Assembly: GCA_029204225.1 (NCBI GenBank)
Contig: CM055099.1
Span: 49,001,290-49,065,289 of the forward strand
Direction: 5' to 3'
Origin: Diphasiastrum complanatum
Taxonomy: Eukaryota; Streptophyta; Lycopodiopsida; Lycopodiales; Lycopodiaceae
DNA: 64,000 nucleotides
Position 1 is the stretch's first letter. Every line of letters starts with the position of its first letter. Position numbers and translations under genes: made by a program. Of this stretch, positions 41,241 to 64,000 are shown one piece after another. The notes beneath the pieces are model-generated. The model saw only the letters and a program-made list of their open reading frames with translations. It did not search any database and was not told the DNA's origin.

Positions 41241-41244
41241 AAAT

Positions 41245-42533: not shown

Positions 42534-42661
42534 GCTATTCCAAGAACGAATTGATAGGTGTGCAATTCATCAAGAAAATCTAGTACGACACACTCTATGG
42601 TAAAAATCAAACTGGCAATTTTGATGGGCAAATTGCTTATGTGACCGGCAGGTGTTGTCAT

Positions 42662-43252
42662 TCATTGGTCAGCCATACATAATTTGTACTTAGGCTTTTC
42701 CAATGTGGATATTTCCCATGCCGTTTCCAAGGACATGGCGATAATATTCATGCCAGAGCCACTATCAAGAATGGCTTGTACGGATGGATAAGATTTATAG
42801 TGCACTGGTAAAGTGATGTTGTTACCTTTAGCAACACCTATATGAAGTAAGCTCATGTCAATAGTATGAACCATTTCAACGTTTTCTGGATGTCTTGACT
42901 CATCTGGTACATCAGGCTGCTGGAAGCTATCCAATATGGCATCCTGCAAGGGTTTGGAAAACTTGACGGGCATGTAGAAGGGCATGGTGATTTGAGCTTG
43001 TAAGAGATCGGAAAGAACCTCTATTCCTCGTGGTGGTTGCCCCTGCGTAGGTAGTTGGGTGGATGGCGGAGTAGAAATTCTAGCTTCAGCTCTATCAAAC
43101 TCATCTCGGAACTCATAGGATTGCCTTTGAGCTTCTACAGGGTCAGGGTAAGATTGTGGAATCATGGAAGTATTAGCAGGAGTGTGTGGATGTGATGGGT
43201 CCTTGTTCTCATCTAAGGCCCGCCGATGTTGCGCACGTGTGACAGCATGCAA
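42662..43252 (-). pseudogene. Gypsy element 3, protease region
   Basis: A 196-residue frame: a Pro/Gln-rich N-terminal half, then MPFYMPVKFSKPLQDAILDS and the retropepsin-like VQAILDSGSGMNIIAM. The Asp-Ser-Gly triad is intact. It ends at a stop just after KYKLCMADQ, short of the domain's second half. Confidence 0.75.
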
Positions 43253-43312
43253 CGACTCTTCCGATACCCTACATGTTGGAACAGTCTTTTTGGGTTTGGT
43301 TAGGGCAATCTT

Positions 43313-43717
43313 TTAGCAATGCTTCCTGATACAATCAGCACATTCAGCTACAAAGTCATATCGAAGTCGACATTCACTCTGAAAGTGAGTAATTTCTCCG
43401 CAGACAAAACATCTCTTTTGAAGTGCTGAAGGGAAAATGGCATAACCATTTTGATCAATTTCAGTAGGTGATTCCTTTCGATAATATTGTTCATTAGGAG
43501 AGGATGTGGATGCCTCATCTATGTATGTGACAAGATGACCATCATCATAAGTAGTGTAATAGGAGGTATTCTGCACTAGATGGGCCTGAACTGGAGGTCG
43601 GTTCTGTTGGTTTGGCCTGTTGGGTGGAGTAGATCCTCTTAGACTTGGAAGTGCCAAGCGTTGTTGTTGTAGAGGTAGTTGTTGTCTAGGTAATTCTTGG
43701 ACTTGGACTAGTGTCAT
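43313..43717 (-). pseudogene. Gypsy element 3, gag C-terminus with zinc knuckle
   Basis: A 134-residue frame rich in Gln, Pro and Arg. It ends with CFVCGEITHFQSEC, a CX2CX4HX4C knuckle, and a further CADCIRKHC. It joins the gag at 43718-44823 after interruptions. Confidence 0.75.
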
Positions 43718-44823
43718 ATAATGTGGGTTATATGGTGCTTGTGGGTGTGCGCGTGGGGCATATTGCTAAGGTCAAGAGTATTGCATGTTGTGTGGGTTGT
43801 ATTCAACAGCTGGATGGTATGAGTGGTTGTATCACACAGTATACAGTGTTGTGGTTCATAAGGACGGTGTAATGGGCACTCATTACCGGTATGTGGATCA
43901 CGACATTGTGGGCACCAGTTGTCTTCTCACCGATGGATAGTGTTACCAGATGGCAATTGTCCTGGGAACTGACTTTGGAAAGATTTTCAAGGCTTGCTGA
44001 AACTCTTTGTTAAGTTTCTCCATTTGTTGTTGATGTTGTTGACTCATCAACTCAAACTGAGATTTCCAGACCTGGTCGGAATCTCGGGGCTCACTTGGAT
44101 GATTATCAGGAAATACATGGTCAATTTTTTTCTCTTTCTAGTCCTCATCATCAAAACCTTCATCTTCTTCACGAATGGCATCAGATTTAAGAGTAAAATA
44201 CACTTCGCTAGGTTTAAGCTCTTTCCAGATGCGTCTGGGAAGACCAATGATAAACCATATGATCAACATCTTATTAGTTGGTTGTTCCTGGACTTGACTT
44301 CCGAGACACTTAAAGCGCTCAATATAGTCATGTACGTGTTCATTATTTTTTATTTTTATATTACTAAGGCATACAAATGGGCTTTCTGTGAGTCGGAAAG
44401 GTTAAAGCGTTTAAGAAAAGACTCTTTCAACTCTGACTAGTCTTGTCGATCATCATGATCGAGGTTGAAAAACCACTCCCGTGCTTTATCTACCATGGTC
44501 ATTGAAAAAAGTTGGACTTTTGCATTGTCAGTATATTCTCCATACACTTTGCATGCATTCTCAAAGACTTGTAAAAATCTATGAGAGTCCACATTACCGT
44601 CGAACTTTGATAATTCTAGTTGGGGTGTTCATTTATTGGATTGGATAGTATGATAAGCATTGTGAACAGATTGATCATCAAGATTTTCAGGCTGATTGGG
44701 TCTCCACCTGGATGGTCCAGGATCTTGATTTACTTGAGATCTAAGATGATAGGGTTTGTTCTTATCATTTGGATGATTGGGCGGTGTAAACTCATCCATA
44801 AGTTTTTCTGGTAAGTTGGCCAT
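43718..44823 (-). pseudogene. Gypsy element 3, gag (left arm copy)
   Basis: Start MANLPEKLMDEFTPPNHPND at 44823. After a stop it continues LELSKFDGNEDPHRFLQVFE and WEWFFNLDHDDRQD; the second half, in another frame, has IERFKCLGSQVQEQ, IGLPRRIWKELKPSEV and REEDEGFDDED. Typical Gypsy gag with several stops. The mirror copy is at 62871-64000. Confidence 0.8.
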
Positions 44824-44859
44824 GAGAATTGATGGAATTCAACTGGTAAAAATGCGACC

Positions 44860-44980
44860 AAAAATGCTACAATTTTTTTTTTGGACAAACAATGCTACAA
44901 AAAAAAATTGCAACAAAAAATCCCGAAGGTAAAAATGCTACAAAAATTTGCGACAAAAAAATTTGCAAAAAAAATGTACA
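44860..44980. repeat. Degenerate A/T-run repeat with GCTACA/GCGACA units
   Basis: Recurrent aaaaatgctac and gcgacaaaaa units separated by A runs. Mirrored in the right arm near 62710-62840. Confidence 0.6.
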
Positions 44981-45375
44981 ACTAACTTGCTGGATCACCT
45001 TCGAGCTGATGAGCTAAAGCATAATTCACATAAGACGTTAAATAAAATGCTTAACTTGTGGGTTTATGGGTAAACTACAAAAATTGGAATCATCATTCAC
45101 ATTTACCAAATAACACAACCATGCAAGTCGATCTTTTTTATTTGCAAACAAGTAATAAGAGGGCCCTATACAGATGGCATCTTGCCCTGCAGGACATGAG
45201 ACAAACACTCATGCTTGAAAACATACTCATGCGAAAGGAAATCTATAGAGAGATGTTTACTTGCATGTCACCTCTTTTCCAGTACCATATCAAACTTGGC
45301 TAACTTGGTGATCTCAAAGTCTAGCATCTCAAAATGAGTGTGAATAGAAAGTAGTGCTTGAGAGACTTTTCGATC

Positions 45376-45525
45376 TCACACCTCTGTGCCCTTACCATCT
45401 TGCATCTCAATTGTATATTGGTATTCAGAAGGCACAATAGCCAAGTTAAGCTTATTCACCACATTATGTGAGGAACCGGTGTCAAATAATACAAAACATC
45501 TCGACCTTCCAGCTTCCCCCTCATC
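45376..45525 (-). pseudogene. Another Gypsy protease fragment (left arm copy)
   Basis: The minus strand reads EVGRSRCFVLFDTGSSHNVV, then LNLAIVPSHYQYTIEMQDGK before a stop at 45376. This is a retropepsin active-site strand with intact DTGS, of a type different from element 3's DSGSGMN. Fragments in other frames lie on both sides (about 45040-45880), so an older Gypsy element lies in the arm. Mirror copy at 62166-62315. Confidence 0.75.
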
Positions 45526-45894
45526 TGGATCAACTCACTATCCAGAAATTGATATACGTCTCGTATCCTGGCTGAAAGGAAATAAACTGGTGCATTTAGA
45601 ATTATAATCTTCCACACCAAAATGGTCATGACATGCTTAGCGTCCTCATCATTGCTACCCAGTCAATCATCCATCATATCCTCATTCATGTTCCCTTCCC
45701 GGTGCGACTATAGAGTATGGAATTTCTTTTCACTATCCTTCTTTCTTGGCCTTTTCCTTTTGTCTCGTTGTGAGAAGAGATTTATTGTACAAGCGTTTTG
45801 GCAAAAAAAGTGTTTGCTTGCGTTTCAGAGCTTATTGCATCTAGATAGGCTGCCATATGGGAATTTATTGTGGCCCTAATGGCCACCATTCACG

Positions 45895-46070
45895 ACTCCT
45901 TCTTTGAGTGACACAAAAGTTTTTATTTTGCAAAAAAGCGACACTTTTTTTGAGAAAGCGACACTTTTTTTGAAAAAGTGACATTTTTTTTTGCAAAAAA
46001 AGCGACAATTTTTAGTGTTCAAATTTTTTTTGCAAAAAATGCGTCACTTTTTTTTTTTTTTTCCTTTTTT
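45895..46070. repeat. Degenerate GCGACA + T-run repeat
   Basis: Four to five diverged units of the form (a)gcgacactttttttg with A/T runs. Mirrored near 61610-61780, where lengths of the runs differ. Confidence 0.65.
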
Positions 46071-48240
46071 TGCAGGTTGTCGGATGCAATCATCAGAGAA
46101 AGTCTTGTTGTGAACTTCGTTGGACACAACTTTTTTGGAAAAAATCCTGAAAAAATTGAAACTTTTCGAGTAACTTGAAAAATTCAAAAAATGCTGAAAA
46201 CCTCGAGAACTTGAAAAAATTTAAAAACTTCAGATGCAATGGGAAATCAGGAACCAAAAGTCATTCAGAACTGAAAAAGTGTAAAAAATAAGTTTTGTCG
46301 ATGGAAATGCAAGAAGATTATCAAAAGCAAACGATGCCAATGTTTGCTAATTGGTCTTGTCTACTTCAATGTTTGTTGCCGCATCTACTCAACGTTTGCA
46401 GCAAGATCTACTCACTCTTTGCATTGATTCTACTCAGATGACAGTAGATTCTTTTACTCACTCCTACACTGGTAGCACTAGAATCTACTAGCTTTACTTC
46501 TCAATGACTAGCACACTGGTCCTCTGTCTCAATCTACTTAGTGATAACTCTCATTCTGTTTGACAAAGGGCCAACATGGCAGGGATTCACGAGATTGCAA
46601 ATCAATTTAGCTACAGTTCAGTCTTAGAATCTAATTTTGCAGTATAAGAGTGTTGTACTCGTCTGTCAATGACACAACAATGATCTAATTTAGAACCTTA
46701 TTTGACAATGGTAGCTCATCTTGGACAGTGATCTTATCAGGACTCAATTTTCTACTGATCTATAGTTCTATTTCAGATTGATTGATTATTGCTTACAGAC
46801 TGCAAATTATTGCTAAACTAAACTAAGCAAGAATAGGGAATTAAAGTAAATCTACTCCTATTGAAATCAAAGAATCAACATCAGCTCAACAACTTCTAGA
46901 CTAAATCAATGATAATCCTACAAAGTGCTACCTACAATTGTCACTCAACAGTTGTAAGAAGAATTTCTCAGAGAGTAAAAACCAGGAGACATCAGAAAAC
47001 AGTGGAATGGTAGATCAATCTCCAAGTCCTGCACATCTGCCTGATACTAATTCCAAACCAAACTTTAAGAGAAGAAAGCATCAACAAGCACATTCATACA
47101 TCAATACCCAAACAAAATGCATGAAGATAGAGCATGAGAAGAAATGCAAGTAGAATGATCTTCAATTAACAAAGCAACAACATTTTAGTACAGATTACAT
47201 GCTCTAGAACTCGAGGAGAAGGCTCTTATCTATACCCACGAGTTGTAGAACTCAATTGCATAATATTTTGGAGTCCACCTCTTGCAACAGAGTGAATCCC
47301 AATCTGTAATAATTTGAGTTCCACCTCTTACTAGATAACAGGAGGCCTCCTTATTAAAAAAACATAACTTAAGTTGAGATAATCTAATTTGCTAGCTCCC
47401 ACATGGTTATTAATCTTTCGGGACGTACCATGGGGCTCACACTGTATATTTTAGCCTAGCACTATAATTCTCGTGCTCTCAGACTGAGCTCTCAATTTCA
47501 TCTCTACTAGAAGCCTTTTTGAGTGGAGAGGTGTTGCATCGACACCTCGGGGCATGGCATCAGCTAACAATTATTTACTCATGAGAAATAGAAAATCTTT
47601 TGTAACTGAGTTACAAGATCTCAGTGAGATATGTGAGTAACATATATGGGTTTTGGAGGAATCTACCATGCATCGTTTGCACACCCTTGTAGGAAATTTT
47701 TATGGATCATGCATTGTTTGCATGCCTTCGTAGAAATTTTTTTAATGGGAACACATGCATGCCTTAAAAGTTTAGGTCGCCTCAAGAGAGTATCCTTTAA
47801 AGTTGAGTGACCTCAACACATAGCATTGCCTTTTGCAAGGCAAGGCCAACACTAATTTCTTGCTATTTATGAGTTGGAAATATCAACTATAACGTATTGC
47901 CTTTTTGCAAAGCAATGTTAACAAAGTACATGCTTCTGTGGTCGAACTTAAGTTAGAGCAAAGGAGCATGTGCTAGAACTGCATAGGTCTTTGTCAAGCA
48001 ATGTCAACAAAGTCTTACCAATTTTGAGTAAGAAATTTGGGAGTGTTGAGTGTTTGATTGGTGGATTAGTCCAGATGGCAATGAAGAATACGGTGCTCCT
48101 CATGCAGGATACGTTTTCCCTTATCAGTACGCTGCTCTGTCATGAGCAAAGCAAAAAGGAACACACTCACATGCAGCAAAAACGATCTTATCGTCGCAAA
48201 GAGAATTGTAGCTCAAAACGGAAGCAATTTCATGTATAGG
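46071..48240. other. Non-coding part of the left arm
   Basis: No gene recognised. Includes a patch with repeated tctactca phrases (46380-46480) and several short frames without motifs. It forms the distal upstream region of the polyketide synthase gene. Confidence 0.4.
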
Positions 48241-48248
48241 AAAAGACG

Positions 48249-48273
48249 GGTAGGTAGGGTAAGAGCATAAAAG
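48249..48273 (+). promoter_or_regulatory. Candidate MYB (AC-element) site and TATA-like box, left gene
   Basis: GGTAGGT at 48249-48255 is the reverse of ACCTACC, the AC/P-box element bound by R2R3-MYB activators of phenylpropanoid and flavonoid genes. An ATAAAAG box follows at 48267-48273, about 150 bp before the start codon. The right gene has the same arrangement. Position and spacing suit a core promoter; the binding itself is inferred. Confidence 0.5.
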
Positions 48274-48420
48274 AGCTCTACGCAATTGCATTTGCGCTGG
48301 TCAGATGTATGCAGCCTAGCAGTAGAAGGTGGTCTATAACATGTTTTCTCTATCTTGTTGGATTTAGCTGTTAGATTGTATCTGACAAGCTCCTCAAAGA
48401 GTGTACTGTTTGATTAGAAA

Positions 48421-50049
48421 ATGGAGTTCGATATGCATGCAGCAGACGCACCAGTTGCCAATGGATTTTCCTTCCGGGATAGCCGTCAGAGGCCTGAGGG
48501 TCCGGCTTCTATATTGGGCATTGGTATAGCCAACCCGCCTCACGTTTTCGAGCAGGCCGTGTACCCAGATTTTTTCTTCGACATTAACAATTGCAATGAA
48601 AAGACTGAGCTCAAAAAAAAGTTTCAACGTATCTGTAAGCCATCTAATTTTCTTTGAGAATCTGCATAATTGCTTGCATTTCACTGTGTTTACTAGGCTG
48701 CAGGAAGTGATAAATATTTCACAATCCGAATGAGAATAGCAGCTTAGATAGAGGAAAAAACTTGGTGAAACGCAATCACTCCAACCGATCTTAGTACATG
48801 ATACTATTAACTGTGAAAAATCTGCATCATGTGTTGCATACCATTGTGCTTATCAGGTCAGTGAAGTAAAAATTTACCTTTTACACTCAAAATGTGTATA
48901 ACTGCTAAGCGATGAAGGAGCTCAGTAATACATAATTACTTCCACTAACTATGGTAGAAATGCCAATCAGCCGCCAAGTATCAGCTGTGAATTCTCTTTT
49001 TAACTTTTCTTTATGTGCATCTATAGAAGTTATTCTAATTCTTGAAAGGTGTGGCAGGTGACAGATCTGGCATTAAGAAAAGGCATTTCTTTCTCACCGA
49101 GGAGATTCTTAGAGCCAATCCGGCGATGTGTACTTATATGGGTGGCTCTCTAGACGTGAGACAGGACATCGCCGTTGCAGAGGTACCAAAGCTCGCCAAG
49201 GAGGCTGCAATGAAGGCGATCAAGGAATGGGGTCAGCCTAAATCCAAAATCACCCACGTTGTATTTGGAACAACGAGCGGAGTTGACATGCCTGGAGCTG
49301 ATTTTCGTCTCACCAAGCTCCTGGGCCTTCGCCCAGATGTGAAAAGAGTAATGTTATATCAGCAAGGCTGCTACGCCGGAGCAACCGTAACACGCATCGG
49401 GAAAGATCTGGCCGAAAACAACAAAGATGCTCGTGTTCTTGTAGTGTGCAGTGAGGTAACAGCAGTCACATTCCGAGCACCGAGTGAGACACATCTCGAT
49501 GGGCTGGTTGGATCTGCGTTATTTGGGGATGGCGCTGCTGCCCTCATCCTTGGTTCGGATCCTGTCCCAGAGGTGGAGAAGCCCATCTTTGAAATCCATT
49601 GGGCTGGAGAGACGATCCTTCCTGACAGCGATGGCGCCATCAATGGTCATCTAAAAGAAGCTGGGCTGGTATTTCATCTGCTGAAGGATGTACCAGGACT
49701 AATATCAAAGAACATAGAAAGGGTCCTGTCAGAGGCATTGAAATATGCAGGTTCACCAGAATACAATGACATATTTTGGGCTGTTCATCCAGGAGGCCCT
49801 GCCATCATTGATCAGATGGAGCAAAAGCTCAAACTCACACAAGGCAAGATGACAGCGACAAGAGACATTCTGGCAGCTTATGGAAACATGTCAAGTGCTT
49901 CAGTGCTTTTTGTGCTGAATCAACTCCGCAAAAGATCACTAGAGTTGAATCTATCTACCACCGGAGAAGGCTGTGAACTGGGGGTATTGATCGGATTCGG
50001 TCCTGGCTTGACCGTGGAGACTCTGGTGCTGAAAAGTACTTCAATCTAA
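48421..50049 (+). CDS. Type III polyketide synthase (chalcone/stilbenecarboxylate synthase family), left copy
   Basis: Two exons, 48421-48634 and 49058-50049, with a 423-bp GT-AG intron splitting a Cys codon (Cys72), the conserved intron site of plant chalcone synthases. The 401-residue product matches the family length of about 390-400. Catalytic Cys176, His315 and Asn348 and gatekeepers Phe227 and Phe277 are present (Medicago CHS2 numbering plus 12). The pocket residues Thr209, Gly268 and Ser350 and the GFGPG loop are CHS-like; the CoA-contact Lys62 of CHS2 is Arg. The family condenses a CoA starter with malonyl-CoA, usually in the cytosol. Segments such as [12 protein letters not shown] and [14 protein letters not shown] recall liverwort stilbenecarboxylate synthase, so the product (chalcone or lunularic-acid type) is undecided. 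Confidence 0.93.
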
Positions 50050-51016
50050 TATGGCTGCCTTCTTAGCTCTACCTTCAGCTTCATAAAATTCTTGAATTAT
50101 TAGAGCCTTTTATATCTATCCAAATTTTATCTATAAATAAGAAGCGACCTCCTTAATGATAGTTCTGATAACGCTGTTATACATATCTTCAATTTTTATA
50201 GATCTACATGGCATCAAATCCACTAGTATCCTGCTTAAGCTCTTTTATTGTGATGAGATCTTGACTTATAAAAATCATCATCTACAATTGATAACTATAT
50301 TCTTATTGAAATTGACTTCTATACCAAGGTATGATGCTTAAGCTCTTTTATTGTAATGAGATATTGACTTATAACAAGAACTTTGTGGCATACCAAAAAG
50401 GCCTTCCATTATTGTGGTGTTTTGAGATTTGTAAGTTTGTGAAAATTATTTGTTATTTTCTAATTTTACAAATAATCATAGTTATTTTTATATTTGAGTA
50501 TTTATCATGTCACAAACTTAGAATCAATGGTCACAAAATTATGTACAAAATTTTAAATACTAGCTCTACAATATTGCATTCAATTTTCAAAAGTAACGAC
50601 AAATTTATTATTATAGTATTATAGCTTAATATAAAATTTTTACAATTTATATTCACGAAAGTAGTAAATTTCACGATGTAATATTTCCAATTTCATGATG
50701 CACATTCACAATTGCAGAAAATGAATATCACAATTCATTGTGTATGAATTGATGAAAGTATTGATAAATTTTATTGTTCTCAATTTCACGATTAAATTCA
50801 CAAAAATGGTCACAATTTGTGCAATAAGACACTGACAAATGACCACAAATATCATGATTGAGTACTCATTAATTTCATAATTCGATATAATTGATGAAAT
50901 TCACATTTGTTATAAAAAAAAAGTCACAATTTTAATATGTAGAAAAATTGCTATCTTTTATTCACAATTGCAGTATTAAAAATAAGTCACGATCAAAGTA
51001 TTCCGAGTATCATGAT
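50050..51016. other. AT-rich 3' flank of the left synthase gene
   Basis: No gene. From about 50640 the sequence is full of short related phrases such as attcacaatt, tttcatgat and atcatgattgagtactca. They grade into the inner end of the arm. Confidence 0.5.
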
Positions 51017-51046
51017 TGAGTACTCACTAACTTGTGGTGGATGATC

Positions 51047-51692
51047 TGTGAAGGATTTCAGATCATTCAAGATCCAATCCATGTCCCTGATCTTTGGTTA
51101 CAGTAAGGAGCAAACCAACAATCCTAACAATGTAGAAAAACCAGAATCTACATACAAAATGAGATGCAAACTCTAAGAGATACTGATCAAACATGAACCA
51201 AAACATAAAATATGTTTGTTGTCCGTACAATTACAGTACCCTACTATATTTCACACGTGTGGAACCGAAAATAGCAAAATATGAGCATTCTACACACAAG
51301 ATTTCAAGATATCATCAAGAGAGTGCACCAATGAGTAGTAGAACCCAGAAAGAACCATGTATAATGATGAAATGGGAGAGAGAAGATGTGTCTCTCCATG
51401 AGTTACATCCTTTTATAGCAGGTCCAAACCCTATTTGGCCACTTGGCTTTCCCTCCAAAATGTAAACCCTACTATTTTGGGGACTAGATTCAATGTACCC
51501 AAAGTTCAAATTTGATTCTCTCTCAAACTCGACTCCAACTTTTTCACACTTTCAAAAAGTGTTTATTGAATGTATTTTAAACTAATATAACTTCAAAAAG
51601 TTTATCTCTAAGTCTAAAATGAGTTTTGGCCTCATATAGACAATTTACCAAAATACGACTAGACTAGACTAAACTAGTTGAAATCTCTTACA
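51047..51692 (-). repeat. 3' LTR of the non-autonomous element
   Basis: Starts tgtgaaggatttcag and ends gaaatctcttaca on the plus strand. It closely matches 54740-55393. Contains CACGTG at 51254-51259; the partner LTR has CACATG there. Length is 646 bp. Confidence 0.9.
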
Positions 51693-51700
51693 CTCCCTCT
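51693..51700 (-). other. Polypurine tract of the non-autonomous element
   Basis: The minus strand reads agagggag immediately before the LTR start TGTAAGAG. Confidence 0.75.
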
Positions 51701-52149
51701 TCAACTAGTTTTGGCATAGTTTTGACCATACTACTTTGATCCAAATTTAGAATGATCTCCATCCTAAGTATAGATATCCTTTCTAAGGTTCTAAAGTATC
51801 TTCCATAATTGATATAGAGAATAGTGTCCAAATTGGATGCTTCACTATCTATTACATCAATTTTACACATCAAGATATAACTAGAACATGAAGAACCAAA
51901 TAGAATGTAAATGAAATGATTCTTCCATGCTTCAAACTTTGAACTCTCTGGAAAATTACAGCATTCGAACAATAAATGTTAGTGATGACCATTTGCTTGC
52001 TTGTCTCCTCCAACTTTGTCCTTTCTTGATATGTCTCCACCACAAAACTCCATGAATGAGCCTCCATCTCCATCTTGCCACAAGAAACCATCAAACCTTG
52101 GAAATCCATGAGTAGGTGCGTACATTAATGATGCAAATCCATCACCACA

Positions 52150-52685
52150 TTACTCCATAAACCAAGTAGGTTGCACTAGTCCATCTTCAAGATCTACTTG
52201 ACACAAGAAAATGACCATGAATTCACCAAAAATTGAAAATCTCCAAACATTGGCATCAAGTAACTCTACACTTGAGAACTTGATCATGGATGAGTGATAT
52301 AACGAACCTCTAATACCTTCATTTCCATTAGCAAAACCAGCCAAGAATGCTAATACAACTCCAACAATAAGACATTGCAAGACAATGTAGCTAGTTTGTC
52401 CATATCTTGTCAATTTGCACACATCCACATGAAATAGCTCAAACATGAGACAGACCAAGTAAAGTAAACTTGAACAACACTTCATTGCTGCTCCTTTTAC
52501 CTTATTTGAGTCTTCAATAACTGCAAAAACAGATCCATAACATCTTTGCCAATTACCTCTCCTTTGATGCTCTTGACTAGCTCCAAATTGCCACCTTTCC
52601 TTTTGTGTTGTTGAAGCCCTTTGAGACCAACCTCTTGGTCTTCCTCTTGACCATCAAAGTCATTGAACAAACTTTGTTTTCTAGA
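52150..52685 (-). pseudogene. Non-autonomous element, distal part of the non-canonical block
   Basis: 52685-52500 reads SLFNDFDGQEEDQEVGLKGL, then LELVKSIKGEVIGKDVMDLF, in frame with the 245-residue frame upstream apart from one stop at 52686. After another stop, a frame at 52485-52150 starts with a hydrophobic, signal-like segment (CCSSLLYLVCLMFELFHV) and a second one (VLQCLIVGVVLAFLAGF). It ends VDLEDGLVQPTWFME, the phrase found mid-block at 40033-40803. Short coding-like pieces go on to about 51690. Membrane segments recall env-like frames of some plant retroelements, but this is only a resemblance. Confidence 0.45.
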
Positions 52686-53423
52686 TCAATTACTTGCTTT
52701 TCCAGTATGAAAACTATGAGAACCAATATCCACTTGCATAGCATCATCTACACAAGCCAAAACATGTGAGTAAAGCAAAGTGAGTCGCTTCCACTTGATT
52801 TCAGACCTGAACCTTTGGAAATACTCCCTCTCAAACATATGATCTAGATCCAACAAGATCTCATCAATGCTTGATCTTGAATTTTCAGAAAGGTTAATGA
52901 AAACAATGTCACCAATGTCTCCATCATAAATCAAAAGATAGATTCCAAACTTTCCATCCAACATGAAGTAGAGTAGGTGAAGATGAGTATCAAACCTAAT
53001 AAATTCAGCCTTCTTGAATCCATAAAAAACCTCAATAAGCTCACCAATGAGATCTCCCTTGCCTTGAAGAAATTGCCTCTCGATTTGCTCCATGTAGTCT
53101 TCTCCAACCAACCTTTTGCCATCTCGATCATGAGTGATCAATTCACAATCATAGAATCCTTTGAGTTGATGAAGAGATGTGAGATCCATGCCTTCGATCT
53201 TCCCAAGAACCAATCTTCCATTGCTCTTTCCTTCATAAGACTCCCTCTTAATGATTGCATCATAAGAAGTAGAAACCTCAAAGACATTAGAAGCCATGAA
53301 AAAAATGATTAGTACCTTCAACATAAGGATGATTGAAGTACTCTCTTTTTTCAAACAGGAATTTCTATTCAATGATTTAGGTAATGACTCATATGATAAT
53401 GATTCTTCCTCACTATCATTCAA
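52686..53423 (-). CDS. Non-canonical Copia-borne coding block, second half (copy 2)
   Basis: A 245-residue open frame: acidic Ser-rich start, hydrophobic segment (IILMLKVLIIFFMASNVF), YDAIIKRES, GKIEGMDLTSLHQLKGFYDC, EDYMEQIERQFLQGK, LIGELIEVFYG, FIRFDTHLHLLYFMLDG, then a Leu-rich C-terminus. It aligns collinearly with 39388-40036. The hydrophobic stretch could be a signal peptide or membrane anchor. No known domain. Being open while the surrounding element has decayed makes selection on this protein possible; untested. Confidence 0.6.
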   Translation of the reverse strand: MNDSEEESLSYESLPKSLNRNSCLKKESTSIILMLKVLIIFFMASNVFEVSTSYDAIIKRESYEGKSNGRLVLGKIEGMDLTSLHQLKGFYDCELITHDRDGKRLVGEDYMEQIERQFLQGKGDLIGELIEVFYGFKKAEFIRFDTHLHLLYFMLDGKFGIYLLIYDGDIGDIVFINLSENSRSSIDEILLDLDHMFEREYFQRFRSEIKWKRLTLLYSHVLACVDDAMQVDIGSHSFHTGKASN

Positions 53424-53431
53424 AGAACTTC

Positions 53432-53935
53432 CTACTTTGAGCTCTTCACATACTTCTTGTCTTCTTGACTTGTGACTATCTCCCTCACCAAGTCTCTTGA
53501 TAGAACCATTTGATCTCTCTCTTTATGAAGACATGTGACTCCACTTGCTACAAAAATGACTTTCTTGGACTCATCACAAAAGAATGTAGAAGAACCATCT
53601 CCTTCATGAATGCACCTAGCAACATCTTTTTCCATATGATCAAAGAAATCATTAACAACAATCTTTTCCAAAGAAGAACCTTCACCTCCATTGATGAAGT
53701 TAGCTCTTTCCTTACCTTTTGCATGCTTGCACTTGCCATGAAGAACCATTGAAACACCATCATTATCCTCAAGACTAGCCAAGCTAGCACAAAGATGAAC
53801 GTCTTTAAGAAGCATATCAGATCTTGACCTAGATCTAGCATAAGGAAGCTTTTTAGACTTTGCATAAGATCCACCAATCTTATTGATGCTAAAAGAGAAC
53901 TTTGGAAAGTTGAGACGATGTAGACTTGGATTCAT
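53432..53935 (-). CDS. Non-canonical Copia-borne coding block, first half (copy 2)
   Basis: A 167-residue frame aligning with 40033-40803: INKIGGSYAKSKKLPYARSR, LHGKCKHAKGKERANFINGG, NDFFDHMEKD, CDESKKVIFVASGVTCLHKE. It lacks the internal LEDGLV segment of copy 1, which appears instead at 52150-52200. A frame change near 53428 separates it from the second half; in copy 1 that join is open. The Met at 53935 follows directly on gag sequence, so it was probably translated as part of a gag fusion. Confidence 0.6.
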   Translation of the reverse strand: MNPSLHRLNFPKFSFSINKIGGSYAKSKKLPYARSRSRSDMLLKDVHLCASLASLEDNDGVSMVLHGKCKHAKGKERANFINGGEGSSLEKIVVNDFFDHMEKDVARCIHEGDGSSTFFCDESKKVIFVASGVTCLHKERDQMVLSRDLVREIVTSQEDKKYVKSSK

Positions 53936-53944
53936 AAAGCTTCT

Positions 53945-54217
53945 TCAAAGCTTCCCAAGCCTCCAAAGGTGATGTGCACTTACCAACTTAAGAAGTTCGT
54001 TGGTAACATTCATCTTAATCATGTGTAGAGCTTTCTTTGCTCTCTTGTCATACCTCACTTGATCTTGAGGTGCTTGAGGCCTCTCCTCCACACCTACAAC
54101 AATCTCCATCAACTCATTCATCTCCAATAAGGACTCCATCCTCACCTTCCAAGTAGAATAGTTGATTGAGGTAAGCCTATCATTGCTCTCCAACATAAAG
54201 CCTCCACTTGTAGCCAT
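53945..54217 (-). pseudogene. Non-autonomous element, partial Copia gag
   Basis: Starts MATSGGFMLESNDRL at 54217 and shows the UBN2 gag signature NYSTWKVRMESLLEMNELME and MIKMNVTNELLKL. A frameshift follows (near 53985; the correct frame continues EALKKLYESKS), after which gag stops and the non-canonical block begins. The zinc knuckle is absent. Confidence 0.85.
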
Positions 54218-54727
54218 GTTGAAGTGACCTGATCTTCTCTTTCAACCTGTTCCAATGCACAAAGCACTCTCTTGAATGTCAACAAATGAACTCAAGAAGA
54301 AATCACAAAGATATGGAACCTCTCAAATCTCTTCTAGCACTTCTAGCTAGAAAATCAACACATAGAATAGTGAGATCTTGATCAACCTATGATCTATCCT
54401 CAACCTAATGATTCTTGCCACTTACTAAGATTGAAACACACTCAAATGAAGTTAGGTAACCTCACAAACTAGAGATCCAATCAAAATTAGGGTTTTGACA
54501 AAATCACAAAAAAATGAATATCTCAAATTCTACATGCAATTTCTAGAAACTTGATATATCTTCTTGTAGTATAATCCTATATTGAGATTTGACCTACAAA
54601 AGATCAATTCTACACATGCAAAAATGCTAATTTTTGAGTAGAGATCAATCTAGCATGCTCTAGCATTGGTAACTCCTCCAAATATTTGCTAAAGATGGCT
54701 AATCCTTTCATAACCTGAAACACAAGA
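54218..54727 (-). other. Leader of the non-autonomous element
   Basis: About 500 bp non-coding between primer site and gag start. Confidence 0.7.
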
Positions 54728-54739
54728 GCTCTGATACCA
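54728..54739 (-). other. Primer binding site, initiator tRNA-Met
   Basis: The minus strand reads TGGTATCAGAGC, directly next to the LTR edge at 54740. Confidence 0.95.
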
Positions 54740-55393
54740 TGTGAAGAATTTCAAATCATTCAAGATCCAATCCATGTCCCTGATCTTTGGTTTCAGTAAG
54801 GAGCAAACCAACAATCCTGCCAATGTAGAAAAATCAACATCTACATACAAAATGAGATGCAAACTCTAAGAGATACTGATGAAACATGAACCGAAACATA
54901 AAATATGTTTGCTGTCTGTACAATTACAGTACCCTACTATGTGACACATGTGTGGAACCGAAAATAGCAAAATATGAGCATTCTACACACAAGATTGCAA
55001 GATATCGTCAAGAGAGTGCACCAACGAGTAGTAGAACCCAAAGAGGACCATGTATAATGATGAAATGAGAGAGAGAAGAGAGAAGATGTGTCTCTCCACG
55101 AGTTACATCCTTTTATAACAGGTCCAAACCCTATTTGGCCACTTGGCTTTCCCTCCAAAATGTAAACCCTACTATTTTGGGGACTAGATTCAATATACCC
55201 AAAGTTCAAATTTGAATCTCTCTCAAACTTGACTACCAACTTTCCCACACTTTCAAAAAGTGTTTATTGAATGTATTCTAGACTAATATAACTTCAAAAA
55301 GTTTATCTCTAAGTCTAAAATGAGTTTTGGCCTCATATAGACAATTTACCAAAATATGACTAAACTAGACTAAACTAGTTGAAATCTCTCACA
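54740..55393 (-). repeat. 5' LTR of the non-autonomous element
   Basis: Plus strand starts tgtgaagaatttc and ends atctctcaca. Length 654 bp; high similarity to the 3' LTR with scattered substitutions and small gaps, so insertion is not brand new. Confidence 0.9.
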
Positions 55394-55600
55394 CGATCCA
55401 TCATCAGCTTTTGGTGTAATTGGTTTCACCGCCCATGTGGTTGGATCGATCTTTACAACCTGCTCCCTGTATTCAAAGCTGAGTTTTCCAATTTTCCAGT
55501 TGTGAACCACTTGCGCAGTCCTCAACCACGGTCTAGTAAATCGCAGTAGGCAGATGGGAACTTTGGTATATTGTAGGGTCGATGTTCTCATGTCGTAGTA
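55394..55600 (-). pseudogene. Gypsy fragment at the insertion site
   Basis: The minus strand reads VVHNWKIGKLSFEYREQVVK, then IDPTTWAVKPITPKADDGS, ending exactly at the LTR of the non-autonomous element. It matches the protease-RT spacer of the Gypsy elements at 2591-2887 and 41844-42533. Confidence 0.75.
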
Positions 55601-56063
55601 GCCCTCCCACCTATCAACAAGGGTTAGAACACTGGAAAGGTAGCTAACTGTGCATAGATGCTACTTTTAGATAGTTCTCTATTTTTTTCCTAACACTAAC
55701 ACCACTAACACTACTCACCCCTAACTCTACTCCACTAAACTAACATTCATCATGATTTTGTGAAGGGAAGGGAGAGTAGAAGAGAGTGAGGGAGAGAAAG
55801 AGAGAAAGGGGGAGAGAGATTTGAGATGGAGGTTAGCTCAAATGCTCAATATCATTGCTTATGGAAAAACATTAACTAGTAAACCTTAAAATAAAGAGAG
55901 ACGTTGATCATTGAGAGAGAGAGTTAAAATAGCAATGATCGACTTATACAGTGCTTTCTAATTTTGATGGCACCACGTGTGCCCAGTTTTAGAATTATCG
56001 GGCCGTCTTTCTTTTACGAGCCCTTTCAATGCTCTTAAGCAATTTTATCTTTGTACTTGCTGA
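55601..56063. other. No gene recognised
   Basis: AC-rich then purine-rich (gagagagaaagag phrases near 55760-55830). No motif. Confidence 0.4.
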
Positions 56064-56350
56064 TTAGTGTGAATATACAATGTGAATTCTTCTATCAGAA
56101 GCTACAAACCTTGGAAGAACTGAGATGAAAAATGCATGATATGAGTTGCCATCCTCCACTTGCTTTTCTTTTTTCACATATGTGAGCCTCCTTGGTTTGG
56201 ATATCTCTCTCATAGATCTTCTTGGTGTAATAGCTTGAAGATGCTCCTTCTCAAGCCTCGACCCCTCCACATCTTGATTGTCTTGGAACCGGACTACTTC
56301 GCAGTGTTCGTGAGCAAGCCATTTCTAAGTGGAAGCTTAAATATGACAAA
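56064..56350 (-). pseudogene. Copia inter-domain fragment
   Basis: The minus strand reads SRLEKEHLQAITPRRSMREI and PRRLTYVKKEKQVEDGNSY. This is the segment between integrase and RT seen in the Copia elements at 19330-28688 (TPRRSSR...RLTY). Isolated 290-bp remnant next to a CT tract. Confidence 0.75.
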
Positions 56351-56365
56351 GCTTTCGCCTTGATC

Positions 56366-56368
<3 letters not shown>

Positions 56369-56431
<63 letters not shown>
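56369..56431 (+). repeat. (CT)n microsatellite, 63 bp
   Basis: Uninterrupted CT run. Confidence 0.97.
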
Positions 56432-56438
<7 letters not shown>

Positions 56439-56454
56439 TACCACTTTACTGAAA

Positions 56455-56650
56455 CATGAATATCGTGAATATTGAAACGTGAATACTGAAACGTGAATAT
56501 CGTGAAACATGAATATCGTGAATACTTTGAATACTGATCATGAAACTCTGAATATGATCGTGATACTTCGATATTGATCGTGAACTCTGAATACTAGTCA
56601 TGATACTTTGAATATTGATCATGATACTCTAAATACTTTGATCGTGACTT
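56455..56650 (+). repeat. Degenerate minisatellite at the inner end of the right arm
   Basis: About eight to ten variant units around gaatactgatcatgatact and gaatatcgtgaaacatgaat. The left arm has at most one such unit at the mirrored place (51000-51016). The arm homology ends inside this array. Confidence 0.75.
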
Positions 56651-57584
56651 ATTTTTAATACTGCAATTGTGAATAAAAGATAGCAATTTTTCTACATACT
56701 AAAATTGTGACTTTTTTTTTATAACAAATGTGAATTTCATCAATTATATCGAATTATGAAATTAATGAGTACTCAATCATGATATTTGTGGTCATTTGTC
56801 AGTGTCTAATTGCACAAATTGTGACCATTTTTGTGAATTTAATCGTGAAATTGAGAACAATAAAATTTATCAATACTTTCATCAATTCATACACAATGAA
56901 TTGTGATATTCATTTTCTGCAATTGTGAATGTGCATCATGAAATTGGAAATATTACATCGTGAAATTTACTACTTTCGTGAATATAAATTGTAAAAATTT
57001 TATATTAAGCTATAATACTATAATAATAAATTTGTCGTTACTTTTGAAAATTGAATGCAATATTGTAGAGCTAGTATTTAAAATTTTGTACATAATTTTG
57101 TGACCATTGATTCTAAGTTTGTGACATGATAAATACTCAAATATAAAAATAACTATGATTATTTGTAAAATTAGAAAATAACAAATAATTTTCACAAACT
57201 TACAAATCTCAAAACACCACAATAATGGAAGGCCTTTTTGGTATGCCACAAAGTTCTTGTTATAAGTCAATATCTCATTACAATAAAAGAGCTTAAGCAT
57301 CATACCTTGGTATAGAAGTCAATTTCAATAAGAATATAGTTATCAATTGTAGATGATGATTTTTATAAGTCAAGATCTCATCACAATAAAAGAGCTTAAG
57401 CAGGATACTAGTGGATTTGATGCCATGTAGATCTATAAAAATTGAAGATATGTATAATAGCGTTATCAGAACTATCATTAAGGAGGTCGCTTCTTATTTA
57501 TAGATAAAATTTGGATAGATATAAAAGGCTCTAATAATTCAAGAATTTTATGAAGCTGAAGGTAGAGCTAAGAAGGCAGCCATA

Positions 57585-59213
57585 TTAGATTGAAGTACTT
57601 TTCAGCACCAGAGTCTCCACGGTCAAGCCAGGACCGAATCCGATCAATACCCCCAGTTCACAGCCTTCTCCGGTGGTGGATAGATTCAACTCTAGTGATC
57701 TTTTGCGGAGTTGATTCAGCACAAAAAGCACTGAAGCACTTGACATGTTTCCATAAGCTGCCAGAATGTCTCTTGTCGCTGTCATCTTGCCTTGTGTGAG
57801 TTTGAGCTTTTGCTCCATCTGATCAATGATGGCAGGGCCTCCTGGATGAACAGCCCAAAATATGTCATTGTATTCTGGTGAACCTGCATATTTCAATGCC
57901 TCTGACAGGACCCTTTCTATGTTCTTTGATATTAGTCCTGGTACATCCTTCAGCAGATGAAATACCAGCCCAGCTTCTTTTAGATGACCATTGATGGCGC
58001 CATCGCTGTCAGGAAGGATCGTCTCTCCAGCCCAATGGATTTCAAAGATGGGCTTCTCCACCTCTGGGACAGGATCCGAACCAAGGATGAGGGCAGCAGC
58101 GCCATCCCCAAATAACGCAGATCCAACCAGCCCATCGAGATGTGTCTCACTCGGTGCTCGGAATGTGACTGCTGTTACCTCACTGCACACTACAAGAACA
58201 CGAGCATCTTTGTTGTTTTCGGCCAGATCTTTCCCGATGCGTGTTACGGTTGCTCCGGCGTAGCAGCCTTGCTGATATAACATTACTCTTTTCACATCTG
58301 GGCGAAGGCCCAGGAGCTTGGTGAGACGAAAATCAGCTCCAGGCATGTCAACTCCGCTCGTTGTTCCAAATACAACGTGGGTGATTTTGGATTTAGGCTG
58401 ACCCCATTCCTTGATCGCCTTCATTGCAGCCTCCTTGGCGAGCTTTGGTACCTCTGCAACGGCGATGTCCTGTCTCACGTCTAGAGAGCCACCCATATAA
58501 GTACACATCGCCGGATTGGCTCTAAGAATCTCCTCGGTGAGAAAGAAATGCCTTTTCTTAATGCCAGATCTGTCACCTGCCACACCTTTCAAGAATTAGA
58601 ATAACTTCTATAGATGCACATAAAGAAAAGTTAAAAAGAGAATTCACAGCTGATACTTGGCGGCTGATTGGCATTTCTACCATAGTTAGTGGAAGTAATT
58701 ATGTATTACTGAGCTCCTTCATCGCTTAGCAGTTATACACATTTTGAGTGTAAAAGGTAAATTTTTACTTCACTGACCTGATAAGCACAATGGTATGCAA
58801 CACATGATGCAGATAATTCACAGTTGATAGTATCATGTACTAAGATCGGTTGGAGTGATTGCGTTTCACCAAGTTTTTTCCTCTATCTAAGCTGCTATTC
58901 TCATTTGGATTGTGAAATGTTTATCACTTCCTGCAGCCTAGTAAACACAGTGAAATGCAAGCAATTATGCAGATTCTCAAAGAAAATTAGATGGCTTACA
59001 GATACGTTGAAACTTTTTTTTGAGCTCAGTCTTTTTATTGCAATTGTTAATGTCGAAGAAAAAATCTGGGTACACGGCCTGCTCGAAAACGTGAGGCGGG
59101 TTGGCTATACCAATGCCCAATATAGAAGCCGGACCCTCAGGCCTCTGACGGCTCTGCCGGAAGGAAAATCCATTGGCAACTGGTGCGTCTGCTGCATGCA
59201 CATCGAACTCCAT
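57585..59213 (-). CDS. Type III polyketide synthase (chalcone/stilbenecarboxylate synthase family), right copy
   Basis: Exon 1 is 59213-59000 and exon 2 is 58576-57585, with an intron of the same length and borders as the left copy. The 401-residue protein has the complete Cys-His-Asn triad and both gatekeeper Phe residues. It differs from the left copy only at residues 5 (Val for Met), 20 (Gln for Asp) and 60 (Lys for Glu), all in exon 1; the exon 2 translations are identical. Both copies therefore look functional and make the same class of product. The gene faces the left copy tail to tail across 7.5 kb, so read-through of either would give antisense to the other. Confidence 0.93.
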
Positions 59214-59360
59214 TTTCTAATCAAACAGTACACTCTTTGAGGAGCTTGTCAGATACAATCTAGCAGCTAAATCCAACAAGATAGAGAAAACATGTTATAG
59301 ACCACCTTCTACTGCTAGGCTGCATACATCTGACCAGCGCAAATGCAATTGCGTAGAGCT

Positions 59361-59385
59361 CTTTTATGCTCTTACCCTACCTACC
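59361..59385 (-). promoter_or_regulatory. Candidate MYB (AC-element) site and TATA-like box, right gene
   Basis: ACCTACC on the plus strand at 59379-59385 and CTTTTAT at 59361-59367 mirror the left gene's elements exactly, about 150 bp before the start codon. Confidence 0.5.
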
Positions 59386-62165
59386 CGTCTTTTCCTATAC
59401 ATGAAATTGCTTCCGTTTTGAGCTACAATTCTCTTTGCGACCATAAGATCGCTTTTGCTGCATGTGAGTGTGTTCCTTTTTGCTTTGCTCATGACAGAGC
59501 AGCGTACTGATAAGGGAAAACGTATCCTGCATGAGGAGCACCGTATTCTTCATTGCCATATGGACTAATTTGCACCTAGCTCCCACCCTAATCCACCAAT
59601 CAAACACTCAAAACTCCCAAATAGAGCCCAAATTTCTTACTCAAAATTGGTAAGACTTTGTTGACATTGCTTGACAAAGACCTATGCAGTTCTTGCACAT
59701 GCTCCTTTGCTCTAACTTAAGTTCGACCACAGAAGCATGTACTTTGTTAACATTGCTTTGCAAACAGGCAATACGTTATAGTTGATATTTCCAACTCATA
59801 AATAGCAAGAAATTAGTGTTGGCCTTGCCTTGCAAAAGGCAATGCTATGTGTTGAGGTCACTCAACTTTAAAGGATACTCTCTTGAGGCGACCTAAACTT
59901 TTAAGGCATGCAAGTGTTCCCATTAAAAAAATTTCTACGAAGGCATGCAAACAATGCATGATCCATAAAAATTTCCTACAAGGTGTGCAAACGATGCATG
60001 GTAGATTCCTCCAAAACCCATATATGTTACTCACACATCTCACTGAGATCTTGTAACTCAGCTACAAAAGATTTTCTATTTCTCATGAGTAAATAATTGC
60101 TAGCTGATGCCATGCCCCGAGGTGTCGATGCAACACGTCTCCACTCAAAAAGGCTTCTAGTAGAGATGAAATTGAGAGCTCAGTCTGAGAGCACGAGAAT
60201 TATAGTGCTAGGCTAAAATATACATTGTGAGCCCCATGGTACGTCCCGAAAGATTAATAACCATGTGGGAGCTAGCAAATTAGATTATCTCAACTTAAGT
60301 TATGTTTTTTTAATAAGGAGGCCTCCTGTTATCTAGTAAGAGGTGGAACTCAAATTATTACAGATTGGGATTCACTCTGTTGCAAGAGGTGAACTCCAAA
60401 ATATTATGCAATTGAGTTCTACAACTCGTGGGTATAGATAAGAGCCTTCTCCTCGAGTTCTAGAGCATGTAATCTGTACTAAAATGTTGTTGCTTTGTTA
60501 ATTGAAGATCATTCTACTTGCATTTCTTCTCATGCTCTATCTTCATGCATTTTGTTTGGGTATTGATGTATGAATGTGCTTGTTGATGCTTTCTTCTCTT
60601 AAAGTTTGGTTTGGAATTAGTATCAAGCAGATGTGCAGGACTTGGAGATTGATCTACCATTCCACTGTTTTCTGATGTCTCCTGGTTTCTACTCTCTGAG
60701 AAATTCTTCTTACAACTATTGAGTAACAATTGTAGGTAGCACTTTGTCGGATTTTCATTGATGTAGTCTAGAAGTTGTTGAGCTGATGTTGATTCTTTGA
60801 TTTCAATAGGAGTAGATTTAGTTTAATTCCCTATTCTTGCTTAGTTTCGTTTAGCAATAATTTGCAGTCTGTAAGCAATAATCAATCAATCTGAAATAGA
60901 ACTATAGAACAATACAAAATCGAGTCTTGATAAGATCATTGTCCAAGATGAGCTACCATTGTCAAATAAGGTTCTAAATTAGATCATTGTTGTGTCATTG
61001 ACAGACGAGTACAACACTCTTATACTACAAAATTAGATTCTAAGACTGAACTGTAGCTAAATTGATTTGCAGTCTCGTGAATCCCTGCCATGCTGGCCCT
61101 TTGTCAAACAGAATGAGAGTTATCACTGAGTAGATTGAGACAGAGGACCAGTGTGTTAGTCATTGAGAAGTAAAGCTAGTAGATTCCAGTGTTGCCAGTG
61201 TAGGAGTGAGTAAAAGAATCCGCTGTCATCTGAGTAGAATCAATGCAAAGAGTGAGTAGATCTTGCTGCAAACATTGAGTAGATGCGACAGCAAACATTG
61301 AGGTAGAACGAGACCAATTAGCAAACATTGGCGTCGTTTGCTTTTGATAATCTTTTTGCATTTTGATCGACAGAACTTATTTTTTACACTTTTTCAGTTC
61401 TGAATGGCTTTTGGTTCCTGATTTCCCATTGCATCTGAAGTTTTTAAATTTTTTCAAGTTCTCGAGGTTTTCAGCATTTTGTGAATTTTTTGAGTTACTC
61501 GAAAAGTTTGAATTTTTTTAGGAATTTTTCCAAAAAAGTTGTGTCCAACGAAGTGCACAACAAGACTTTCTCTGATGATTGCATCTGACAACTTGCAAAA
61601 AAAGGAAAAAAAAAAAAGTGTCGCTTTTTAAGCAAAAAAAATTTGAACACTAAAAATTGTCGCTTTTTTCGCAAAAAAAAGGTCACTTTTAAAAAAAAAT
61701 TAAAAACTAAAAGTTGTCACTTTTTTTTTCGCAAAATTTGTCACAAAAAAAGTCTCTTTTTTGCAAAATAAAAACTTTTGTGTCACTCAAAGGAGTCGTG
61801 AATGGTGGCCATTAGGGCCACAATAAATCCCCATATGGCAGCCTATCTAGATGCAATAAGCTCTGAAACGCAAGCAAACACTTTTTTTGCCAAAATGCTC
61901 GTACAATAAATCTCTCCTCACAACGAGACAAAAGAAAAAGGCCAAGAAAGAAGGACAGTGAAAAGAAATTCCATACTCTATAGTCGTGCCGGGAAGGGAA
62001 CACGAATGAGGATATGATGGATGATTGATTGGGTAGCAATGATGAGGACGCTAAGCATGTCATGACCATTTTGGTGTGGAAGATTATACTTCTAGATGCA
62101 CCAGTTTATTTCCCTGCAACCAGGATACGAGACGGGTATAAATTTCTGGATAGTGAATTGATCCA
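59386..62165. other. Non-coding part of the right arm
   Basis: Mirror of 45526-48248. No gene recognised; contains the degenerate GCGACA/T-run repeat near 61610-61780. Confidence 0.5.
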
Positions 62166-62315
62166 GATGAGGGGGAAGTTGGAAGGTCGAGATGTTTTGT
62201 ATTATTTGACACCGGTTCCTCACATAATGTGGTGAATAAGCTTAACTTGGCTATTGTGCCTTCTCATTACCAATATACAATTGAGATGCAAGATGGTAAG
62301 GGCACAGAGGTGTGA
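62166..62315 (+). pseudogene. Another Gypsy protease fragment (right arm copy)
   Basis: Plus-strand frame with VLFDTGSSHNVV (Asp codon at 62208) and LAIVPSHYQYTIEMQDGK, ending at a stop at 62315. Mirror of 45376-45525. Confidence 0.75.
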
Positions 62316-62870
62316 GATCGACAAGTCTCTCAAGCACTACTTTCTATTCACACTCATTTTGAGATGCTAGACTTTGAGATCACCAAGTTAGCCAAGTTTG
62401 GTATGGTACTGGAAAAGCGGTGACATGCAAGTAAACATCTCTCTATAGATTTCCTTTCGCATGAGTATGTTTTCAAGCATGAGTGTTTGTCTCATGTCCT
62501 GCAGGGCAAGATGCCATCTGTATAGGGCCCTCTTATTACTTGTTTGCAAATAAAAAAGATCGACTTGCATGGTTGTGTTATTTGGTAAATGTGAATGATG
62601 ATTCCAATTTTTGTAGTTTACCAATAAACCCACAAGTTAAGCATTTTATTTAACGTCTTATGTGAATTATGCTTTAGCTCATCAGCTCAAAGGTGATCCA
62701 GCAAGTTAGTTGTACATTTTTTTTGCAAATTTTTTTGTCGCAAATTTTTGTAGCATTTTTACCTTCGGGATTTTTTGTTGCAATTTTTTTTTTTGTAGCA
62801 TTGTTTGTCCAAAAAAAAAAATTGTAGCATTTTTGGTCGCATTTTTACCAGTGGAATTCCATCAATTCTC

Positions 62871-64000
62871 ATGGCCAACTTACCAGAAAAACTTATGGAT
62901 GAGTTTACACCGCCCAATCATCCAAATGATAAGAACAAACCCTATCATCTTAGATCTCAAGTAAATCAAGATCCTGGACCATCCAGGTGGAGACCCAATC
63001 AGCCTGAAAATCTTGATGATCAATCTGTTCACAATGCTTATCATACTATCCAATCCAATAAATGAACACCCCGACTAGAATTATCAAAGTTCGACGGTAA
63101 TGAGGACCCTCATAGATTTTTACAAGTCTTTGAGAATGCATGCAAAGTGTATGGAGAATATATAGACAATGCAAAAGTCCAACTTTTTTCAATGACCATG
63201 GTAGATAATGCATGGGAGTGGTTTTTCAACCTCGATCATGATGATCGACAAGACTAGTCAGAGTTGAAAGAGTCTTTTCTTAAACGCTTTAACCTTTCCG
63301 ACTCACAGAAAGCCCATTTGTATGCCTTAGTAATATAAAAATAAAAAATAATGAACACGTACATGACTATATTGAGCGCTTTAAGTGTCTCGGAAGTCAA
63401 GTCCAGGAACAACCAACTAATAAGATGTTGATCATATGGTTTATCATTGGTCTTCCCAGACGCATCTGGAAAGAGCTTAAACCTAGCGAAGTGTATTTTA
63501 CTCTTAAATCTGATGCCATTCGTGAAGAAGATGAAGGTTTTGATGATGAGGACTAGAAAGAGAAAAAAATTGACCATGTATTTCCTGATAATCGTCCAAG
63601 TGAGCCCCGAGATTCCGACCAGGTCTGGAAATCTCAGTTTGAGTTGATGAGTCAACAACATCAACAACAAATGGAGAAACTTAACAAAGAGTTTCAGCAA
63701 GCCTTGAAAATCTTTCCAAAGTCAGTTCCCAAGACAATTGCCATCTGGTAACACTATCCATCGGTGAGAAGACAACTGGTGCCCACAATGTCGTGATCCA
63801 CATACCAGTAATGAGTGACCATTACACCGTCCTTACGAACCACAACACTGTATACTGTGTGATACAACCACTCATACCATCCAGCTGTAGGTACAACCCA
63901 CACAACATGCAATACTCTTGACCTTAGCAATATGCCCCATGCGCACACCCACAAGCACCATATAACCCACATTATATGACACCAGTCCAAGTCCAAGAAT
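62871..64000 (+). pseudogene. Gypsy element 3, gag (right arm copy)
   Basis: Start MANLPEKLMDEF at 62871; stops after IQSNK (63064) and at 63256 as in the left copy. Continues through IERFKCLGSQVQEQ and REEDEGFDDED, and the gag region carries on past the window end. Shared stops with the left arm show the element had decayed before the duplication. Confidence 0.8.

Follow-up and report, generated by a model that had tools for sequence, protein, structure and literature searches.

When two almost identical enzyme genes lie tail to tail in the same region of a chromosome, do they silence each other and their relatives, or do they simply supply one enzyme twice? This question is raised by a locus of the clubmoss Diphasiastrum complanatum, situated in a stretch of 64,000 nucleotides that was analysed as a whole and is called the window here. 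The first-pass annotation of this DNA described a near-identical inverted duplication of at least 7.3 kb with two intact, convergent type III polyketide synthase (PKS) genes, and suggested that small RNAs from such a structure could regulate the dosage of the enzyme, after the example of the chalcone synthase (CHS) repeats of soybean. The reading that we favour, with a probability of about 0.7, is a segmental duplication in palindromic form, partly under concerted evolution, which carries two intact, convergent genes of the CHS type; silencing by small RNAs from the pair is possible but not indicated. A limited literature search for Diphasiastrum together with chalcone synthase found no paper. 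The features of the locus are collected in Table 1.

Table 1. Features of the locus in window coordinates
Feature	Position	Strand	Remark
Stretch without collinear match in the neighbouring contig	17013..39924	.	Contig comparison
Outer left arm, missing at this place in the neighbouring contig	40386..47876	.	Contig comparison
Left arm	40475..51016	+	blastn pieces 40475-41243, 41246-41632, 41633-51016
Decayed gag-like remnant, left arm	44138..44838	-	Mate in right arm 62856-63556
Left PKS gene, exon 1	48421..48634	+	ATG 48421; followed by phase-1 GT..AG intron
Left PKS gene, intron	48635-49057	+	423 bp, GT..AG, after the T of a Cys codon (T, then GT)
Homogenised core, left arm	48820..50934	+	Mate 56700-58814; 3 of 2115 sites differ
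Left PKS gene, exon 2 with stop	49058..50049	+	PF00195 and PF02797
Spacer, not duplicated as arm	51017..56617	.	Self-alignment, contig comparison
LTR retroelement in spacer	51047..55393	-	LTRs 51047-51692 and 54740-55393, TG..CA ends
Right arm, portion inside the window	56618..64000	-	Runs on past the window, as far as about 71677
Right PKS gene, exon 2 with stop	57585..58576	-	PF00195 and PF02797
Right PKS gene, exon 1	59000..59213	-	ATG 59213

TWO CONVERGENT GENES OF THE CHALCONE SYNTHASE TYPE

That the duplication carries two intact convergent genes is borne out: both are complete, consist of two exons encoding 401 amino acids and lie tail to tail. Exon 1 (214 bp) and exon 2 (992 bp) of each copy are separated by a phase-1 intron of 423 bp, which stands at the usual intron position of CHS genes. 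The left and right genes differ in 4 of 402 codons, the stop counted, one difference being synonymous and the others M5V, D20Q and E60K; as these three amino-acid differences between the arms of the window all fall in exon 1, the copies are imperfectly homogenised. Both products match the Pfam families Chal_sti_synt_N with 276.8 bits and Chal_sti_synt_C with 202.7 bits (cut-offs 27). The catalytic and gatekeeper residues C176, H315, N348, F227, F277, T209, G268 and S350 are kept, and all 19 active-site positions checked have the residues canonical for CHS, in alfalfa CHS numbering mapped through an equal-length match to 1bi5. Among solved structures, 3awj (a chalcone-synthase-like PKS) and the chalcone synthase 6dx8 come closest in sequence; the former is presumably Huperzia PKS1, in agreement with the Huperzia serrata protein P0006 of that name. 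The top full-length protein match, O6H91_08G083100, comes from D. complanatum itself, and its letters agree with the gene in the right arm of a neighbouring contig that is described below. Comparison of exon 2 with that of the nearest paralog (C10; 87% DNA identity) gave a dN of 0.055 against a dS of 0.53, which is compatible with purifying selection on this exon. Both genes apparently encode a working enzyme of the chalcone synthase type.

Relatives of the pair were sought throughout the 1.74-Gb assembly (5176 pieces), where 17 places of the exon-2 type fall into nine locus groups. In five of the nine, the present locus included, there are near-identical extra copies: the loci at C1 (32.96 and 77.0 Mb), C12/C15, C3/C2715/C4686 and C9/C369 are present two or three times, their copies being 99.0-100% identical across compared lengths of 1.5-3.5 kb. 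The locus on C2 had been considered a pseudogene on account of one TAA inside the search match, but its exon-2 piece is without a stop. In a tree of 23 rows, the pair groups with the C10 paralog and Huperzia PKS3 as a four-row set with support of 97/97, in a topology where PKS3 sits on a long branch and support is low at 8 of the 19 inner branches. The pair resembles Huperzia PKS1 and PKS3 in its PF00195 and PF02797 domains and has the canonical CHS residues. The products reported for PKS3, the long-branch member, are curcuminoids and 2-alkylquinolones (PMC7456412).

EXTENT AND CONTENT OF THE INVERTED REPEAT

The inverted duplication is real and seems fairly young. Self-alignment of the window with blastn yields one dominant inverted match, 43693-51016 against 64000-56618, with 97.16% identity over 7392 columns. 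The arm edge that had been placed at 43694 turns out to be merely the mirror image of the window end: on the window contig the left arm begins at 40475 and the right arm continues beyond the window to about 71677, so that the full unit is indeed larger than the window, as had been supposed. In its part outside the window the right arm exceeds the left one by insertions or extra stretches of about 1.5 kb and 2.9 kb, and the arms measure about 10.5 kb (left) and 15 kb (right), with a spacer of 5.6 kb in between. When 43693-51016 and 56618-64000 were aligned with MAFFT, 134 substitutions (84 transitions and 50 transversions) were found in 7315 aligned sites, together with 12 gap events, the longest of 23 bp, as expected from the earlier description of only small gaps. 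The identity is patchy, in that individual segments diverge by anything from 0.14% to 5.16%.

Each arm also contains the remnant that had been described as a dead gag with the same stops on both sides. The stops are largely the same: in the three minus-strand frames of 44138-44839, 45 stop triplets are shared, 2 are left-only and 2 are right-only. The identity as gag is weaker, as the matches to Retrotrans_gag (E=0.0034) and to a zinc knuckle (E=0.013) are both below the family cut-offs. The shared stops fit the proposal that the duplication is younger than the decay of the element, but later gene conversion could have spread them too. Pfam found nothing above cut-off in the frames examined in the outer arm.

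THE SAME LOCUS ON A NEIGHBOURING CONTIG

The window belongs to a contig that spans C8:49001290 to 49091730 and is bounded by a 10,000-N gap at each side. Its left neighbour ends at C8:48991289, and the last 47.5 kb of this neighbour (48943770-48991289) match positions 1-77275 of the window numbering in direct orientation. The collinear matches cover 1-17012 (99.50%), 47877-71359 (99.62%) and 71384-77275 (99.53%), and contig-to-contig substitutions amount to 0.09-0.21% in the four segments compared. The neighbour has the same gene pair, spacer, LTR element and inner junctions; in each of the two contigs, the inverted arms lie on one assembled piece.

What does this second contig represent? Most likely it is the other haplotype of the same locus, placed in tandem with the first by the assembly. 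This is favoured by the divergence, which is like that of another redundant pair (C9 against C369, with 6 mismatches and 29 gap columns in an alignment of 3505 columns), by the common redundancy and by the fact that the copies meet only at a gap. The four gene copies assembled at this locus would then probably be two, and gene counts taken from the assembly call for caution.

The contigs differ in structure. The neighbour has 595 bp of its own sequence at the first break and keeps 461 bp (99.78%) between the two stretches that it lacks; its match resumes at 47877, 544 bp ahead of the ATG of the left gene, and 3 filler bases precede the join. A loss from the neighbouring haplotype is simpler than a gain on that of the window, because the arms diverge in their outer part by 1-5%, far more than the contigs do; the outer left arm thus appears to have been lost from the other haplotype. 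Other repeats lie nearby. The direct repeats 9120-10234 and 16643-17696 (89%) are LTR-like and would belong to one element; the match of the neighbour breaks off inside the second repeat. A further direct pair of 554 bp, 23533-24086 and 28135-28688 (98%), perhaps the LTRs of a younger element, falls in the stretch absent from the neighbouring contig.

PATCHY DIVERGENCE OF THE ARMS

From the outside inwards, successive segments of the arm alignment have 85/2058, 25/1749, 77/1493, 10/933, 16/943, 3/2115 and 3/82 substitutions per site, or 4.13, 1.43, 5.16, 1.07, 1.70, 0.14 and 3.66%; their edges were picked after viewing the list of differences, so that they show what the pattern looks like but are no test of it. 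The sixth segment is a core that comprises exon 2 and its 3′ flank, and on the neighbouring contig it is a single identical run of 2115 bp with 0 substitutions. Its flanks are more diverged, by 1.70% (16/943) outside and by 3.66% inside, where the few sites (3/82) mean that the boundary consists of three differing sites, two of them adjacent and near the end of the arm. Constraint on the protein alone is insufficient to explain the identity of the core, as it also takes in 238 bp of the intron and a 3′ flank of 885 bp. Between the arms of the window the longest identical run is 1136 bp. When the 134 substitutions were scattered uniformly, 0 of 20000 placements gave a run of this length (maximum 823); this rejects evenly spread differences, and by itself it does not separate conversion from uneven mutation.

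When did the arms become alike? With the inner arms (3.1 kb) of both contigs in one four-way alignment, 13 sites with substitutions pair left with left and right with right (17 arm-grouping columns in the raw count, including 4 gap columns at the edges), and 0 sites group the arms by contig, as conversion after the split of the contigs would have them; this comparison covers the inner arms, the outer left arm being missing from the other contig. Thus the duplication predates the contig split. The differences within the core are singletons on the window contig, and the sites that distinguish the contigs there are 49956, 50176 and 50826, which places the homogenisation of the core before the divergence of the contigs as well.

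The explanation to which we commit ourselves for this patchwork is ectopic gene conversion from arm to arm. According to this model, a palindromic duplication gave the clubmoss two intact genes of the CHS type, tail to tail; conversion between the arms then overwrote stretches of them, the 2.1-kb core last, though still ahead of the divergence of the contigs; and one haplotype may later have lost the outer left arm through an end-joining deletion. The most likely function of the arrangement would be an extra dosage of one enzyme, the copies of which are kept alike by conversion. A comparable situation is reported for the palindromes of the Y chromosome, inverted duplicates with intrachromosomal conversion (PMC3403216). 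The likeness lies in duplicates kept similar by exchange between arms; the clubmoss pair differs in being a single locus with no known link to a sex chromosome, and in that its conversion is patchy, with none seen since the contig split in the 3.1 kb compared. If conversion is the right reading, the locus is a lycophyte case of a palindromic enzyme-gene pair kept alike in this way, and its haplotypes differ in a structural feature open to genotyping.

ALTERNATIVE EXPLANATIONS

Each step of this argument has its rivals. The inverted arrangement itself could be an artefact in which two haplotypes were joined head to head, and the assembly is visibly redundant, with the extra copies in five of nine locus groups noted above and a window contig that sits between N gaps. 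However, a second, separately assembled contig has the same pair, spacer and inner junctions, the arm differences recur in both contigs, left with left and right with right, and the arms diverge by up to 5%, far above the 0.09-0.21% between contigs. As the arrangement was assembled twice, a fold-back is very improbable, and the earlier concern about a haplotype-assembly artefact is largely answered by the second contig, at the level of assembly evidence. It is also conceivable that the whole inverted pair has been duplicated in tandem at a spacing of about 87 kb, giving four genes per haplotype: the copies stand in tandem on one scaffold with 99.5-99.6% identity, and the geometry of the contig ends cannot tell the difference, since overlapping alleles and a hidden true tandem duplication produce the same ends. 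We regard this as unlikely, as the copies meet only at the 10-kb N gap, their divergence matches that of C9/C369, and redundancy is frequent among the CHS-family loci of this assembly. The patchwork, in turn, could have arisen from a single duplication and uneven mutation or selection, with no gene conversion. Part of the conserved core is coding and only three sites mark its inner boundary, but the core reaches into the intron and across a 3′ flank of 885 bp, and it does vary between the contigs at the three positions given above. Uneven mutation could partly account for the patchiness; as the whole explanation we consider it unlikely, and conversion remains our choice.

The remaining rival concerns function. 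In a natural RNAi locus, read-through or antisense transcription would give double-stranded RNA across the arms, from which 21-24-nt RNAs would restrain the gene and its relatives. The architecture invites this idea, with two intact genes tail to tail, a near-identical core of 2.1 kb and a close likeness to two systems described in plants, the soybean i-i allele (PMC6710647) and the PAI1-PAI4 pair of Arabidopsis (PMC3203196); moreover, the C10 paralog, one of eight further CHS-family loci examined, each standing for its group of near-identical copies, has 84 21-mers in common with the coding sequence, the longest exact stretch being 57 nt. Against it, the other seven of these eight loci share none, the stop codons of the two genes are 7.5 kb apart, and in soybean the repeat alone is reported to be insufficient (PMC6418295). 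CpG observed/expected in exon 2 is 0.59, as compared with 0.24-0.72 in eight paralogs (two of them measured on 1077 and 1200 bp, extending past exon 2) and 0.15 in the LTR element of the spacer; being within the range of the paralogs, it gives no sign of long-standing dense methylation on exon 2. On balance silencing of this kind is improbable here.

A POSSIBLE TRIGGER IN THE SPACER

The precedents require more than an inverted repeat: as far as the two reports go, silencing in soybean and at PAI is in both cases dependent on transcription across the repeat. For the i-i allele (CHS1-3-4/CHS4-3-1) of the soybean I locus, two arms of 10.91 kb and a spacer of 5.71 kb are reported (PMC6710647). 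Pigmented wild soybean W05 is reported to share the CHS inverted repeat of cultivated soybean, which is why the repeat is held to be insufficient, and the trigger proposed in the same report is a captured, inverted subtilisin promoter that drives antisense CHS transcripts (PMC6418295). PAI1-PAI4 of Arabidopsis Ws is likewise a tail-to-tail gene pair, and a minority of the transcripts that start at a heterologous promoter are described as crossing the palindrome (PMC3203196). The clubmoss locus resembles the I locus in being a CHS-family inverted repeat with arms of about 10 kb and a spacer of similar size (5.6 kb); it differs in having one gene per arm, in arms that are 0.1-5% diverged while those of soybean are identical, in its host, a clubmoss and not a legume, and in that it is not known to give antisense transcripts or small RNAs. 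From PAI it differs in that PAI is read through from the heterologous promoter, while the clubmoss arms are split by an LTR-bearing spacer.

This spacer contains, between the two stop codons, an LTR retroelement of 4.3 kb with a primer-binding site, TGGTATCAGAGC, beside 54740, and an imperfect target-site duplication, TGATC/CGATC. The primer-binding site is presumably of the tRNA-Met type. No Pfam domain was found above cut-off in two open frames of the element examined. Of its LTRs, the one at 51047-51692, in minus orientation, starts 998 bp past the stop of the left gene and points antisense into that gene, which makes it a candidate trigger. One could imagine an independently evolved RNAi locus in which antisense transcription from this LTR turns the core into double-stranded RNA and small RNAs restrain the pair together with C10; we hold this specific version to be slightly less probable still than silencing by the pair in general. 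If it were true, the trigger would be a transposon instead of a captured gene promoter, nature would offer a comparison in the haplotype without the outer left arm, and inverted CHS repeats would be seen to silence well outside flowering plants. Small RNAs of lycophytes have already been sequenced, as reported in PMC5569507.

Another trace of the same element family is seen elsewhere in the locus. The internal part of the spacer element (52088-53915) has relatives of 76-80% identity at 39545-40711, along the outer margin of the left arm, and thus one element family would be present at both ends of that arm.

INVERTED COPYING AT THE NEAREST PARALOG

The C10 paralog also has an inverted partial copy, and therefore inverted copying may have occurred twice in this small clade; an effect of the assembly is also conceivable for C10. 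The two places (L038 2106-3400 and L039 2090-3479) are about 40 kb apart, and the copy extends over the upstream region, the first exon and the greater part of the intron, with 98.5% identity over 969 columns and 91.1% over 336 columns.
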